Assembly: GCA_003669055.1 (NCBI GenBank)
Contig: RAYB01000017.1
Span: 1 to 64,000 of the forward strand
Length of the DNA: 64,000 bases
From: a bacterium 1XD21-70
GTDB taxonomy: Bacteria; Bacillota; Clostridia; Lachnospirales; Lachnospiraceae
Direction: 5' to 3'
The translations under genes and the position numbers were made by a program. The notes beneath the pieces are model-generated. The model did no database searches. It saw only the letters and a program-made list of their open reading frames with translations, and was not told the DNA's origin. Below are positions 36,828 through 41,475 of this stretch, one piece after another (the stretch's first letter is position 1; every line of letters starts with the position of its first letter).

Positions 36828-39293
36828 CTAGTTATTTATGAGTTCCTTTGTAAAAAATTTCAGTTCGTCCCCGTCCACCCCGACAGCCACCTGATCCCCG
36901 TCTTTGACCGTGCCGTCTAAGACCGCCTCTGCCAGTTTGTCCTCTAAATAGTTCTGGATTGCCCTGCGCAGCGGCCTGGCTCCATACTTCTCGTCGTAGC
37001 CTTTCTCCACCAAAAATGCCCTGGCTTCCTCCTCCACAGAAAGCCGCAGGTTCATCTGGCGCGCCGTCCGCCCCTCGATGCTGCGCAGCATGATGGATAC
37101 AATCTGTCCCATATGCTCCTGGTTCAGCGGGTGGAAAACCATGACTTCATCGATACGGTTTAAAAATTCCGGTTTAAACAGCCGCTTCACTTCCTCCATC
37201 ACCCGGCTCTTCATCTGCTTGTAGCGCTCTTCCTCACTCTCCTGGGAAGTAAAGCCTAAACGTTTGGGCGACAGGATGCTCTGTGCCCCCGCATTGGATG
37301 TCATGATCAGCACCGTATTTTTAAAATCGATCCTGCGCCCCTGGGCATCGGTAATATGGCCGTCATCCAACACCTGCAGCAGGATATTGAACACATCAGG
37401 ATGGGCTTTTTCAATCTCGTCAAACAGGATCACCGAATAGGGGTTGCGCTTCACCTTCTCACTAAGCTGCCCGCCCTCATCATAGCCTACATACCCTGGC
37501 GGGGAGCCGATCATCCGCGATACGCTGTGTTTTTCCATGTATTCTGACATATCAACCCGGATCAGTGCATTCTCCGTGCCGAACATCGCCTCCGCTAAGG
37601 CTTTGCACAATTCAGTCTTGCCCACGCCGGTAGGTCCGAGGAATAAAAACGACCCGATCGGGCGTTTGGGATCCTTCAGGCCGACCCGCCCGCGCCGGAT
37701 TGCCTTAGACACGGCGGCCACGGCCTCATCCTGGCCTACTACCCGTTCATGCAGGATCCCTTCCAGTTTTTTGAGACGTTCCGTCTCTCCCTCTTCCAAT
37801 TTGCGCACCGGGATTTTCGTCCAGCCGGAGACCACATCGGCAATCTGCCCTTCATCCACCAGCAGCTTGCGGCTGTTCTTCTCCTTTTGCCACTTCCCAC
37901 GCACCTTCTCAATCTTTTCGCGCTTTTTTTCCTGCCTGCGCTTGATATCTCCCGCCTTTTCATAAGCCTCAGCCTTAATGGCGGCTTCCTTCTGCTGCTC
38001 CAGGTTCTCGATATCCTGTTCCAGCTGCTTAATCTCAGTCGGCTCCACATAAGTCGTTAAGCGTACCTTTGATGAGGCCTCGTCAATCAAGTCTATGGCC
38101 TTGTCCGGCAGGAAACGGTCGTTGATGTAGCGGGAGGACAAGCGCACGGCCGCCGTCAGCGCATCATCGGTAATCGTCACCTTGTGATGCTCCTCGTAGC
38201 GCGGCCGCAGCCCTTTTAATATGCTGACGGATTCCTCTTCCCCCGGTTCCTCCACCGTCACCGGCTGGAACCGCCTCTCCAGGGCGGCATCCTTTTCGAT
38301 ATATTTGCGGTACTCATCGATCGTGGTAGCGCCCACTAACTGGATCTCCCCCCGTGCCAGGGATGGCTTTAGTATATTGGAGGCATCTATGGCTCCCTCG
38401 GCGCCGCCGGCTCCGATGATCGTGTGGATCTCATCGATAAACAGAAGAACCTCCCCGTCCTCTTTCACCTCGGACAGTACCCGCTTGATCCGTTCCTCGA
38501 ATTCGCCCCGGTATTTGGAACCGGCCACCATGCCGGACAAATCCAGCGTCAGTACCCGTTTGCGGGCAATGGTTTCCGGAATGTCGCCGGAAACGATCAT
38601 CTGGGCCAAGCCTTCCACCACTGCGGTCTTGCCTACCCCCGGCTCCCCGATCAGGCAGGGGTTGTTCTTGGTACGCCGGCTCAAAATCTGGATCACCCGG
38701 CGGATCTCCTGTTCCCGCCCGATGACCGGGTCTAACTTCCCCTCCCTGGCCAGTGCCGTCAGATCCCTGCTGTAATTATTCAAGGTAGGCGTATTGCTTT
38801 TTCCGCGTGCCCCCCGGCCCGCCTGCAGCTCGTCCCGGTTTGACGGTGCATCCTCCCCCATGGCAGACAGGATCTCAACATATAATTTCTGGACACTCAC
38901 CCCGATTGTGTTCAGAAGGCGCGCCGCCACGCAGTCGCTCTCCCGGATCATGGCAATCAAAAGGTGCTCCGTCCCAATCAGCGGAGCCTTAAACCGCACC
39001 GCCTCCCGGTAGCTGTTCTCCAGCACACGCCGGGCGCTTGGCGTATAGGTGCTCCTCTCTGCTAACCCCACCGGCTGGTTGGGTGAAATCAGCTGGCTGA
39101 CCAGTTCTGTCACTTTGTCAGCCTTCACGCCGCAGTCGGACAGCACCTTTGCCGCCACGCCGCTCCCCTCCTGCAAAAGGCCGATCAGCAGATGCTCCGT
39201 CCCCACATAGCCATGCTCTAACTGCTGCGCCGCATCCACAGCTAAGCTGATTGCCTCCTTTGCCTGTTCTGTAAACCTGTCTATCATCGCCAA
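36828..39293 (-). CDS. clpC: ATP-dependent Clp protease ATP-binding subunit ClpC
   Basis: The 821-residue AAA+ unfoldase has two Clp_N repeats (1-145). The first AAA module has Walker [11 protein letters not shown]. The middle domain has a UVR-like coiled coil (about 405-480), and the second AAA module has Walker [12 protein letters not shown] ClpP-binding loop is expected near LGFTSQ. It feeds proteins to ClpP. Both GTEH glutamates of the N-domain that bind phosphoarginine in Bacillus ClpC are kept. It follows mcsB by 99 bases, with a hairpin in the gap. ClpP is not in the window. Confidence 0.97.
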
Positions 39294-39392: not shown

Positions 39393-40427
39393 TCACAATA
39401 ATTCCGGAAGTTCTTTCCGGATATAAGATGCACGTGCCTCGTCCAGCTCCTCCTTGCCAAGAGGGCGTTCGGAAACCCTCTGCAGATTCGCAGGCTGGAT
39501 CCCCAGCATAAAACGGTAGACCGCACAATCCCCCTCTGTCTCTAAGATGCCGTCCGCAATCCCGGACATTATCCGCGACAGAAAAACCATCGCATCCTTG
39601 GCGCTTAAGCGCCTTGCATATTTGAGAACCCCATAAGATTTATATGCTTCATCCGTATATTCCAGCCGGTGCTTTTCCAATGCCATTTTACGCACCTGCT
39701 TTTCCTGTGCGATCAGCTGTAAGGACACCCGGTTCACCAGGTCCAAAATCTCTTTCTCGGACAAGCCAAGTGTCTTTTGGTTGGAAACCTCATACAATGC
39801 CCCGTAATTCTCGCTGCCTTCCCCATATACCCCGCGGACGGATGCCCCGAACCGCCCCATCTCCGCCACCAGGCCGTGGAACTTCTTTCCCATGGAAAGC
39901 GTGGGCAGGTGCAGTATGGCCGAGGCTCTCATTCCGGTTCCCACATTTGTCGGGAATGACGTCAGATACCCATATTTTTTATCAAAGGCATAGGGGAAAC
40001 GTGCATTGATATAGTCATCCATCTGGTCACACCGTGCCCACAATTCCTCTAAGCGGAGTCCTGGCGAAATCATCTGCATGCGGAAATGGTCGGTGCCGTT
40101 GAGCACAATCCCGGTGTCCTCCTCCTCCGACAATATCAGCCCGGCCGGCGTCTTTTTCGAGGCGATGGTAGAATTGAACACCCTCCGTTCCTGCAGGGAT
40201 TTTTTCTCCAGTTCCCCCATATCTGCCAGATAGTAATATTTATAACGCTTCCCGTCCAAGGAACCGAGGTTCTGCAGCCCAAGTTCCAGGCGGCGGAGCA
40301 TCTCCAGGCTCTCTTTTTGCGGCAGCCTGGAAGGGAAAGCGTACTGATTCCAGTTCCGGACCAGGCGCACCCGGCTGCAGATAATGCCTGGGCGTCTCTC
40401 ATCCACACATTCAAACCATTTTAACAT
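39393..40427 (-). CDS. mcsB: McsB-like protein arginine kinase homologue with altered active site
   Basis: The 344-residue protein aligns along its length with McsB and the guanidino kinase fold: CSRVRLVRN at the N-terminus, NVGTGMRASAILHLP and VRGVYGEGSENYGALYEVSNQ. Two catalytic segments differ. The NEEDH motif reads NGTDH (residues 110-114), and the usual Cys of LTSCPTNVG is Phe158 (codon TTC at 39954-39956); this Cys is essential in Bacillus McsB. So the protein may be a pseudokinase or use altered chemistry. It overlaps mcsA by 7 bases and precedes clpC. McsB normally phosphorylates arginines to mark proteins for ClpC-ClpP. Confidence 0.9.
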   Translation of the reverse strand: MLKWFECVDERRPGIICSRVRLVRNWNQYAFPSRLPQKESLEMLRRLELGLQNLGSLDGKRYKYYYLADMGELEKKSLQERRVFNSTIASKKTPAGLILSEEEDTGIVLNGTDHFRMQMISPGLRLEELWARCDQMDDYINARFPYAFDKKYGYLTSFPTNVGTGMRASAILHLPTLSMGKKFHGLVAEMGRFGASVRGVYGEGSENYGALYEVSNQKTLGLSEKEILDLVNRVSLQLIAQEKQVRKMALEKHRLEYTDEAYKSYGVLKYARRLSAKDAMVFLSRIMSGIADGILETEGDCAVYRFMLGIQPANLQRVSERPLGKEELDEARASYIRKELPELL

Positions 40428-41002
40428 TTTCCGATTCCCTCTCTCAATTCCCTGATCTTATCCCTGCATTGTGCGGCGATCTCATATTCTTCCCTGGCAA
40501 GCGCCTCTTTAAGCCTCGCATCCAAAACCTGGATCTGCTCCTCCACATCCAATTCTCCGCCCGGGATCCCGCTCCCTGCCGCGGATATGTCCTCCACGGA
40601 AAACGACGCCCCTGTTTCCTGGTAATGGTAGCGCGGCTGTTTGCCTTTATGGATGCTGCTCCCTTGCAGCTGCTTGATGTTCTCACCAATCAGAAGGTCA
40701 AATACCCCGTAGCATTCCGGGCAGCCGAACCGGCTGTTTTTAATGAATTCTTCATAGGTCGTTTTGCAGGCCGGGCAAACCACCTGATGGGCTTTATTCT
40801 GCTCATCCTGCTCCTCACCGATCCCCAAAAGGCCGGAAAGCAGTTTCCCTAAAGGGAACTCACTGTCAAAAATAGCCGCATAAGGCCCAAAATCCATCTC
40901 TTTGGCACACTGGGCACAAAAATGGTGTTCTGTCTTTACCCCGTTAATGACCTCCGTATATTGGATATTTGCCTCTCTGATTTTACAGTGCTCACACAAC
41001 AT
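40421..41002 (-). CDS. mcsA: McsA, activator of the McsB arginine kinase
   Basis: The 193-residue protein has two zinc-type cysteine clusters (MLCEHCKIRE with HHFCAQCAKE, and CPACKTT with GCPECYGVF). A C-terminal UVR domain follows (LDARLKEALAREEYEIAAQCRDKIREL). McsA binds zinc and heavy metals and activates McsB. Its start lies 15 bases after the GntR regulator. The UVR motif is intact even though the adjacent McsB has lost catalytic residues. Confidence 0.93.
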   Translation of the reverse strand: MLCEHCKIREANIQYTEVINGVKTEHHFCAQCAKEMDFGPYAAIFDSEFPLGKLLSGLLGIGEEQDEQNKAHQVVCPACKTTYEEFIKNSRFGCPECYGVFDLLIGENIKQLQGSSIHKGKQPRYHYQETGASFSVEDISAAGSGIPGGELDVEEQIQVLDARLKEALAREEYEIAAQCRDKIRELREGIGKC

Positions 41003-41017
41003 AATCGTCCTCCATCA

Positions 41018-41392
41018 CTATTTCCCGGTATAATAATCATAAATCTCATCAACCAGCCCGTGTACCTCCTGGCGGCTGACCCGCCTGCATATGCAACGCG
41101 CCAGGACCACCGCCAAATCCTCCCGCAGTTCTTCCATCGCGCGAAGCTTATCCGCGTCGAGGGCAATCACGGCACCTTTCCTGCGGTCCAGCTTGATAAA
41201 CCCCTCTTGCTTTAATACAGCATATGCCTTATTCACCGTGTGCATGTTAATTCCAATATTATCTGCCAGCTGCCGGACGGAAGGCAGGGAATCCCCCTCC
41301 CGGATCCTTTCAGCCGCTATCCCGATAATAATCTGATTCCGGAGCTGTATGTATATCGCCTCATCGCTCTCAAAATCAATTGTCAGAACCAT
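41018..41392 (-). CDS. GntR-family (YtrA-like) transcriptional regulator heading the clp cluster
   Basis: The 124-residue protein (start at 41392, after GGTGA; an ATG at 41413 would add seven residues) has a GntR winged helix. The motifs are IYIQLRNQIIIGIAAERIREG and LPSVRQLADNIGINMHTVNKAY. A short helical C-terminal dimer domain, as in the YtrA subfamily, follows. YtrA-type proteins usually repress their own operons, often under envelope stress. It occupies the place of CtsR, which heads this cluster in Bacillus and most Clostridia, so it may control mcsA-mcsB-clpC. Confidence 0.9.
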   Translation of the reverse strand: MVLTIDFESDEAIYIQLRNQIIIGIAAERIREGDSLPSVRQLADNIGINMHTVNKAYAVLKQEGFIKLDRRKGAVIALDADKLRAMEELREDLAVVLARCICRRVSRQEVHGLVDEIYDYYTGK

Positions 41393-41475
41393 ATCTTCAC
41401 CATCTTTCGTCATCTTTGTCTGGCAAGTCTCCCTTGTGCGGGTTTCGCTGTCTTCCTTGCAAATTTGTTATAATA

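Follow-up and report, generated by a model that had tools for sequence, protein, structure and literature searches.

We propose that the mcsB homologue of the Lachnospiraceae bacterium 1XD21-70 encodes an arginine pseudokinase, i.e. a protein no longer able to transfer phosphate to arginine but maintained by selection as a partner of other proteins, and we assign this reading a probability of about 0.6. The gene lies on the minus strand of the window, by which we mean the whole 64,000-nucleotide stretch of DNA analysed here. The genes of its operon and the residues on which the argument turns are as follows, the residues being placed by alignment and, for the retained arginines, by the spacing of the published B. 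subtilis numbers as well.

41018..41413, minus strand: regulator of the GntR family, first gene of the operon, in the slot held elsewhere by ctsR (domain and neighbourhood)
40421..41002, minus strand: mcsA, 193 aa, with four CxxC motifs and a UVR motif (NCBIfam McsA model, 114.7 bits, below the cut-off of 210)
39393..40427, minus strand: mcsB homologue, 344 aa (phosphotransferase domain and McsB-aligned C-terminal region)
36828..39293, minus strand: clpC, 821 aa, whose N domain carries two GTEH motifs (open reading frame, domain and motif reading)
40371..40373, minus strand: Arg19, equivalent of B. subtilis Arg29, retained
40086..40100, minus strand: NGTDH (residues 110-114), replacing NEEDH
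40080..40082, minus strand: Arg116, equivalent of B. subtilis Arg125, retained
39954..39956, minus strand: Phe158, codon TTC, replacing the catalytic Cys (Cys167 in B. subtilis)
39927..39929, minus strand: Arg167, equivalent of B. subtilis Arg176, retained
39834..39836, minus strand: Arg198, equivalent of B. subtilis Arg207, retained
39444..39446, minus strand: Leu328, where the pArg pocket has Arg337 (LDEARA for RDxxRA)

The identity of the gene as an mcsB homologue follows from domain, structure and neighbourhood. The frame starts with ATG, while the plus strand of 39393-40427 is rich in stops, and Pfam finds a single domain in the product, PF00217 (ATP:guanido phosphotransferase, 3e-52), over residues 58-244. 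Its closest solved chains are the protein-arginine kinases 8wtb, 6tv6 and 6fh1 (E 1.8e-63 to 3e-60), and the alignment of solved McsB covers nearly the full length, residues 12-340 (best E 1.8e-63). Five NCBIfam models match, all of them named protein-arginine kinase and all scoring below their curated cut-offs, the best with 315.9 bits against 385 and the other four with 167.9-295.3 against 381-679. The genes run on the same strand in the transcription order gntR-type regulator, mcsA, mcsB, clpC, the operon with mcsA and clpC being shared with McsB kinases, and 7 bases are common to mcsA and the beginning of mcsB. A second intact mcsB, which the sequence-only reading had named as evidence against its own proposal, was looked for in the assembly (completeness 96.7%, contamination 3.34%) and not found: the homology search gave one match at E<=1, and PF00217 likewise one. 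An AlphaFold model of the protein, computed from an alignment of the window protein and four database records (L023-L026), was too poor for use, with a mean pLDDT of 45.9.

Is the protein still a kinase? The sequence-only reading had placed Phe158 at the position of the essential Cys and had read NGTDH in place of NEEDH, and the alignment to 8wtb, 6tv6 and 6fh1 bears out both. At 39954-39956 the plus strand has GAA, hence TTC on the coding strand, and Phe158 aligns with the Cys of LTSCPTN in the solved chains, which is Cys167 in B. subtilis and Cys157 in S. aureus. The FDKKYGYLTS loop immediately before the old Cys is retained. Within the altered NEEDH motif Glu111 and Glu112 are gone, while Asp113 and His114 remain. 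We take Glu225 of arginine kinase to be the second Glu of NEEDH. In arginine kinase the guanidinium group is held by Glu225, Glu314 and Cys271, and the phosphates by arginines and Mg (PMC11075012, in excerpt). Kinase activity of B. subtilis McsB requires R29, R31, R34, R125, R176, R207 and R337 (excerpt of PMC7235348); by alignment and spacing the first six are present in the window protein as R19, R21, R24, R116, R167 and R198, but the seventh is a Leu, the pArg pocket reading L328-D329-E-A-R332-A333 with its first Arg lost and its D and RA kept. Read in this way from the alignment, the guanidinium side is broken in the window genus and the ATP side is kept, an ATP-binding pseudokinase may fairly be inferred, and it is very probable that the window protein lacks arginine kinase activity.

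These changes are fixed well beyond the strain. An mcsB homologue is present in 22 of the 24 genomes of the genus, and the frames are full-length and stop-free in 21 of these 22 matches. All 21 readable members have lost both glutamates and the Cys (residues 111/112/158 are G-T-F in 16, G-S-F in three, D-T-Y in one and G-T-Y in one), with Thr or Ser at position 112 in every one of them. The remaining genome, L013, was left out of this reading for an in-frame TAG early in its mcsB frame, which reflects either a disrupted gene or an error of assembly. The same losses appear in the four database records (two MAGs, one isolate and one strain), and the agreement of 21/21 members and four records rules out a sequencing error or an oddity of the strain, the second objection that the sequence-only reading had raised against itself.

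In a sample of 396 family genomes, some of them MAGs, homologues were found at E 1e-10 in 94 genomes and in 68 of 280 genera. Glu111 and the Cys are both lost in 68 of the 94 homologues; another seven have lost the Cys and keep Glu111 (Ser in six and Lys in one for the Cys, three with Asp at position 112), and 19 are canonical. At position 112 the 68 rows have Asp (43), Glu (10), Thr (7) or another residue (8). We also computed a tree of 142 proteins, from which the motif columns were removed and L013, L118 and the duplicates L023-L026 left out. A single clade of 77 rows in it contains no canonical protein and has an SH-aLRT support of 100, such supports coming from a quick search. Glu is found at position 111 in none of the 77 clade rows; position 112 is Asp in 42, Thr in 21, Glu in six, Ser in four and something else in four, and position 158 is Phe in 53, Tyr in 21, Ser in two and Trp in one, i.e. 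an aromatic Phe or Tyr in 74. The canonical rows, in contrast, have Glu at 111 and 112 and Cys at 158 in 49/49. The family alignment that had been suggested as a check therefore finds the changes at Glu111 and the Cys fixed in a 77-row clade, with Glu112 also lost throughout the genus.

Two further arginines separate the clade from the canonical proteins. The Arg337 equivalent is Arg in 0/77 clade rows and in 37/49 canonical rows. In B. subtilis, the exchange of R272 for Lys removed the stimulation of McsB by McsA, and Arg to Lys exchanges at the essential arginines abolished the signal (PMC7235348, in excerpt). The R272 equivalent is Lys in the window protein and in 66/77 clade rows but R in 49/49 canonical rows, so that McsA stimulation of the usual kind is unlikely here. 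Arg or Lys occupies all of positions 19, 116, 167 and 198 in 58 of the 68 family rows that lost Glu111 and the Cys, strictly Arg in 25. Phosphate binding could persist in the rows with Lys, which, given the effect of the B. subtilis exchanges, are at the same time further evidence of lost catalysis.

In eight McsB proteins (L087, L097, L099, L100, L106, L107, L251 and L252) Glu111 is retained and the catalytic Cys is replaced by Ser. In six of these genomes (all but L097 and L107) the P-loop of the arginine phosphatase YwlE, to which we return below, is intact in four and degenerate in two. Some of these McsB proteins may be partly active intermediates.

A protein that has lost its chemistry may simply be on its way out. 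According to this explanation a useless kinase persists only through the position of its gene between mcsA and clpC, as the 302 of 396 family genomes without a match at E 1e-10 and the in-frame TAG of L013 might suggest. The rates of substitution speak against it. Comparison of the window gene with L002, the relative closest to it (the L001/L002 pair), gives an NG86 dN/dS of 0.062 at a dS of 0.98. Pairs that lost Glu111 and the Cys have values of 0.019-0.118 (13 of 15 with finite dS), as low as the 0.050-0.110 of canonical pairs (six of seven finite), one further Cys-lost pair being saturated in dS; NG86 is a simple method, and dS is often near saturation. These values argue strongly that the lost-residue genes are under purifying selection as strong as that on canonical genes. 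The segment around the old Cys (residues 151-172) is conserved equally in the clade and in canonical proteins, with mean entropies of 0.75 and 0.72, and the columns that are conserved to at least 90% in canonical McsB and to less than 50% in the clade are few: E111, E112, C158, A23, S85, M108, M171 and R263. Tyr270 is present in 85/86 lost rows against 21/49 canonical rows, and Arg272 is near-invariant among lost rows (83/86). With these residues and with the stop-free frames of 21/22 genus matches, we consider a decaying relic very improbable.

The alignment also bears on the possibility that the enzyme was rewired rather than lost and goes on phosphorylating arginine or some other group, the missing residues being replaced by Glu206 and, in many relatives, by an acid at position 112. 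Position 206, which aligns with Glu314 of arginine kinase, is Glu in 65 and Asp in 10 of 86 lost rows, compared with Glu in 20 and Lys in 18 of 49 canonical rows; Glu206 is thus commoner in the lost rows, and Asn207 is present in 71/86 of them. Because of this enrichment and of the acid at 112 in many relatives (Asp 43 or Glu 10 among the 68 family rows), some residual or altered chemistry may remain, and the ATP-site arginines, mostly retained, would fit it. Against a working enzyme stand the Thr or Ser at 112 in 21/21 members of the window genus, the loss of the R337 equivalent, essential in B. subtilis, and the finding that a change of Cys to Ser alone inactivates the B. subtilis kinase (excerpt of PMC7235348). 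A profile search, moreover, detected no YwlE in the window genome or in 20 others of the genus. On this evidence we regard a rewired kinase as quite unlikely.

The loss of YwlE deserves a closer look. We take the Thr in C-T-G-N-T-C-R to be the marker of YwlE, tyrosine-type enzymes having Ile instead. A single residue sets the specificity for arginine phosphatase activity (PMC5506225, in excerpt). With a YwlE profile built from 24 family members, whose E-values are helped by the profile having been built from proteins of the same genomes, 33 of 80 family genomes match at E <=1.5e-43 and the remaining matches lie at >=1.8e-15. The window genome has one LMW phosphatase, a tyrosine-type enzyme with CHGNICRS and an E of 5.5e-10 to the profile; a YwlE orthologue with a C-x-G-N-T-C-R P-loop was found there neither by the profile nor by a DNA pattern for the P-loop (zero hits), and the profile found YwlE in 0/20 further genus genomes, with no match better than 2.5e-11. 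The DNA pattern was rejected as a means of finding YwlE: it is noisy, with 12 of 27 matches on an LMW-phosphatase hit, 15 off any such hit, and 16 matches for a reversed control pattern. Outside the family the gap is narrower: canonical genomes have YwlE at E <=8.4e-23, except for one truncated match at 1.4e-16 and one at 9.2e-17, and Cys-lost genomes have matches at 5.3e-19 and 3.8e-17, followed by 2.2e-15. We worked with a cut-off of 1e-16 and admitted the 1.4e-16 match as one cut by a contig end.

The comparison covers 146 genomes with both traits, L273 (incomplete) and G009 (unread) having been left out. Among the genomes with canonical McsB, 44 of 47 have a YwlE with the P-loop Cys and Arg, against seven of 99 among those with changed McsB. 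The three other canonical genomes have a YwlE truncated before the motif, none, and a degenerate one, respectively, and in the changed group 11 genomes have a homologue that lacks the P-loop Cys or Arg and 81 have no homologue. Two class matches with a stop inside the matched frame (G591 and G511) were scored as intact from their P-loop. The seven exceptions include four in which Glu111 is retained and Ser replaces the Cys (L087, L106, L251 and L252); the other three lack Glu111 (L065, L067 and G588, the last at a borderline E below the cut-off, counted because its P-loop is intact). After correction for kinship, coded before later corrections of the P-loop readings, the association comes down to four supported independent pairs with a non-significant median sign-test p of 0.125. 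The pattern is strong and the statistic weak, with few independent events.

Ten Lachnospiraceae relatives of YwlE (L198, L199, L200, L202, L208, L209, L210, L211, L212 and L215) have a changed or broken P-loop, for instance FVSMNNTCMGP, FVDRENTCRSI or FVDEANTDLSV, and mostly retain an SRGLVVLFPEP-like motif. Two of them, L209 and L210, come from genomes without McsB. The relatives with a broken P-loop look like pseudophosphatases.

Clade-wide fixation, purifying selection, the targeting of the guanidinium site, the loss of the Arg337 equivalent and the absence of YwlE all support the pseudokinase that the sequence-only reading had proposed. Does it stand alone? We read homologues from a non-random set of class genomes, 30 with the highest Pfam scores and another 30 chosen mainly from the low-scoring ones, with 139 hits outside the reading. 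The 30 picked homologues comprise 24 that lack both an intact Glu pair and the Cys, three that lack the Cys alone, two canonical and one incomplete, and the 27 changed ones belong to the families f8, f10, f13, f30, f39, f53, f59 and f74. In a tree of 171 rows the label canonical or changed needs 12 changes, at least five of them forced by supported branches; the Lachnospiraceae rows make up one side of a branch (97), and several long branches are unsure. From these sequences, similar catalytic losses recur in other Clostridia. Unlike in the window clade, however, the phosphate arginines are mostly lost as well, Arg or Lys occupying all four positions in only 3/27 changed rows of other families. 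Degenerate McsB proteins were seen in several other Clostridia families (L250-L278).

The partner genes are preserved. McsA and ClpC are intact, as first read from the window alone, with four CxxC motifs in McsA and both GTEH motifs in ClpC. The further argument drawn from the phosphoarginine-binding GTEH glutamates of ClpC fails, because both are also retained in 19 of 20 McsB-less Lachnospiraceae genomes. mcsA adjoins mcsB in 93/94 family loci, the exception (L055) lying at a contig end, and all eight zinc Cys are present in 67/67 McsA proteins beside a McsB that lost Glu111 and the Cys. In the 20 McsB-less genomes (L279-L298) mcsA and mcsB were not found in the 1.5-kb flanks of clpC, L292 starting at a contig end and so having no upstream flank. 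It is as if mcsA-mcsB had been excised as a unit. Since McsA and McsB tend to go together, we argue that the pseudokinase works with McsA.

The regulator of the operon has its own history. B. subtilis carries both mcsB and ctsR. CtsR was found in 0/80 family genomes (68 with an mcsB homologue, canonical ones included, and 12 without) and in 20/20 class genomes with canonical McsB. The latter served as positive control since a 14-genome panel was unusable for this operon, giving 0 PF00217 hits and CtsR only in L. lactis, with B. subtilis positive for PF01451. From the two counts, the loss of CtsR came with the family and not with the loss of the kinase. We also rejected the idea that the kinase was lost because CtsR had gone, given that the family lacks CtsR even in canonical genomes and that CtsR is still next door in 21 of the 27 catalytically changed loci of other families. 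A relative of the window GntR regulator is present in 81/94 family loci, and it seems that in Lachnospiraceae the clpC regulator was swapped from CtsR to GntR, a swap of which we found no mention in the literature searched.

Could the protein then be a non-catalytic regulator, which sequesters or assembles ClpC, titrates McsA, or acts on GntR as McsB does on CtsR? The shared operon and its conserved gene order are consistent with such a role, and so is the proximity of CtsR at the 21/27 changed loci. The McsB of B. subtilis is held and inhibited by ClpC, and once released from oxidised McsA it can strip CtsR off DNA (both PMC5506225, in excerpt). The GntR regulator, on the other hand, seems independent of McsA and McsB, for it persists, no more than 230 bases upstream of clpC, in 12 of the 20 genomes where neither gene was found there. 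We judge this explanation unlikely.

The preferred reading, an arginine pseudokinase kept as a partner, leaves the question of what the partner does. On balance we somewhat favour a main role as a McsA-dependent partner of ClpC. McsA would bind the conserved loop just before the old Cys, as in the kinase; in the S. aureus complex McsA contacts the loop right before the Cys (excerpt of PMC12467219). The McsA-pseudokinase pair would then act on ClpC, and we infer that the complex serves ClpC without catalysis, as an adaptor or a factor of assembly by which aberrant proteins are recruited or retained, perhaps under the control of bound nucleotide. The closest analogue is B. subtilis McsB C167S, which is kinase-inactive and with which MgsR has a half-life of 12.3 min, compared with 17.7 min without McsB; its authors read this as a kinase-independent adaptor function and suspect ClpX, not ClpC (PMC7235348, in excerpt). 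A review states that the ClpC stimulation and adaptor function of B. subtilis McsB need kinase activity (PMC5506225, in excerpt); the window clade may have been freed from that requirement. By this analogy the delivery of substrates to ClpC by the predicted adaptor, as suggested in the sequence-only reading, is plausible.

The protein can be set beside several known systems. With the McsB kinases of B. subtilis, G. stearothermophilus and S. aureus it shares homology over residues 12-340, the mcsA-clpC operon, the phosphate-binding arginines, the loop before the Cys and the D and RA of RDxxRA. It differs from them in lacking the NEEDH glutamates and the catalytic Cys, in having Leu for Arg337 and Lys for the Arg272 equivalent, in a genome where CtsR and YwlE were not found, and in missing five NCBIfam cut-offs. 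With C167S it shares the loss of the catalytic Cys in a protein that is otherwise present, a partial adaptor function being reported for that mutant (PMC7235348, in excerpt); C167S, however, is a laboratory point mutant in a cell with CtsR and YwlE, whereas the losses described here are natural, extend beyond the Cys and span a large clade. Ser/Thr pseudokinases have a fold different from that of McsB. What the bacterial ones have in common with our protein is a kinase fold retained without catalytic residues (PMC12599244, in excerpt), the mentions of McsB found in that source sitting in its reference list. MecA and YpbH act on ClpC non-covalently, and if the adaptor reading is right the window protein would resemble them in this. 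Both are named as ClpC adaptors (excerpt of PMC5506225). In the literature searched, outside which most subscription papers lie, we found no report of a natural McsB without catalytic residues.

An mcsB gene is commonly taken as a sign of arginine kinase activity. Our broadest proposal, which we put forward only tentatively, is that much of Lachnospiraceae and, repeatedly, other Clostridia may have switched off phosphoarginine tagging: the writer would have been kept as an ATP-binding, non-catalytic, McsA-dependent adaptor of ClpC, YwlE would have been lost or turned into a pseudophosphatase, and a covalent tag would have given way to a nucleotide-gated adaptor made from the same parts. If this is true, many gut bacteria with mcsB probably make no phosphoarginine. 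Natural McsB proteins that lack the catalytic residues, in such numbers, would allow the kinase role of McsB to be told apart from its role as a ClpC adaptor, and with them one could readily test how McsA and McsB act on ClpC when the chemistry is missing.
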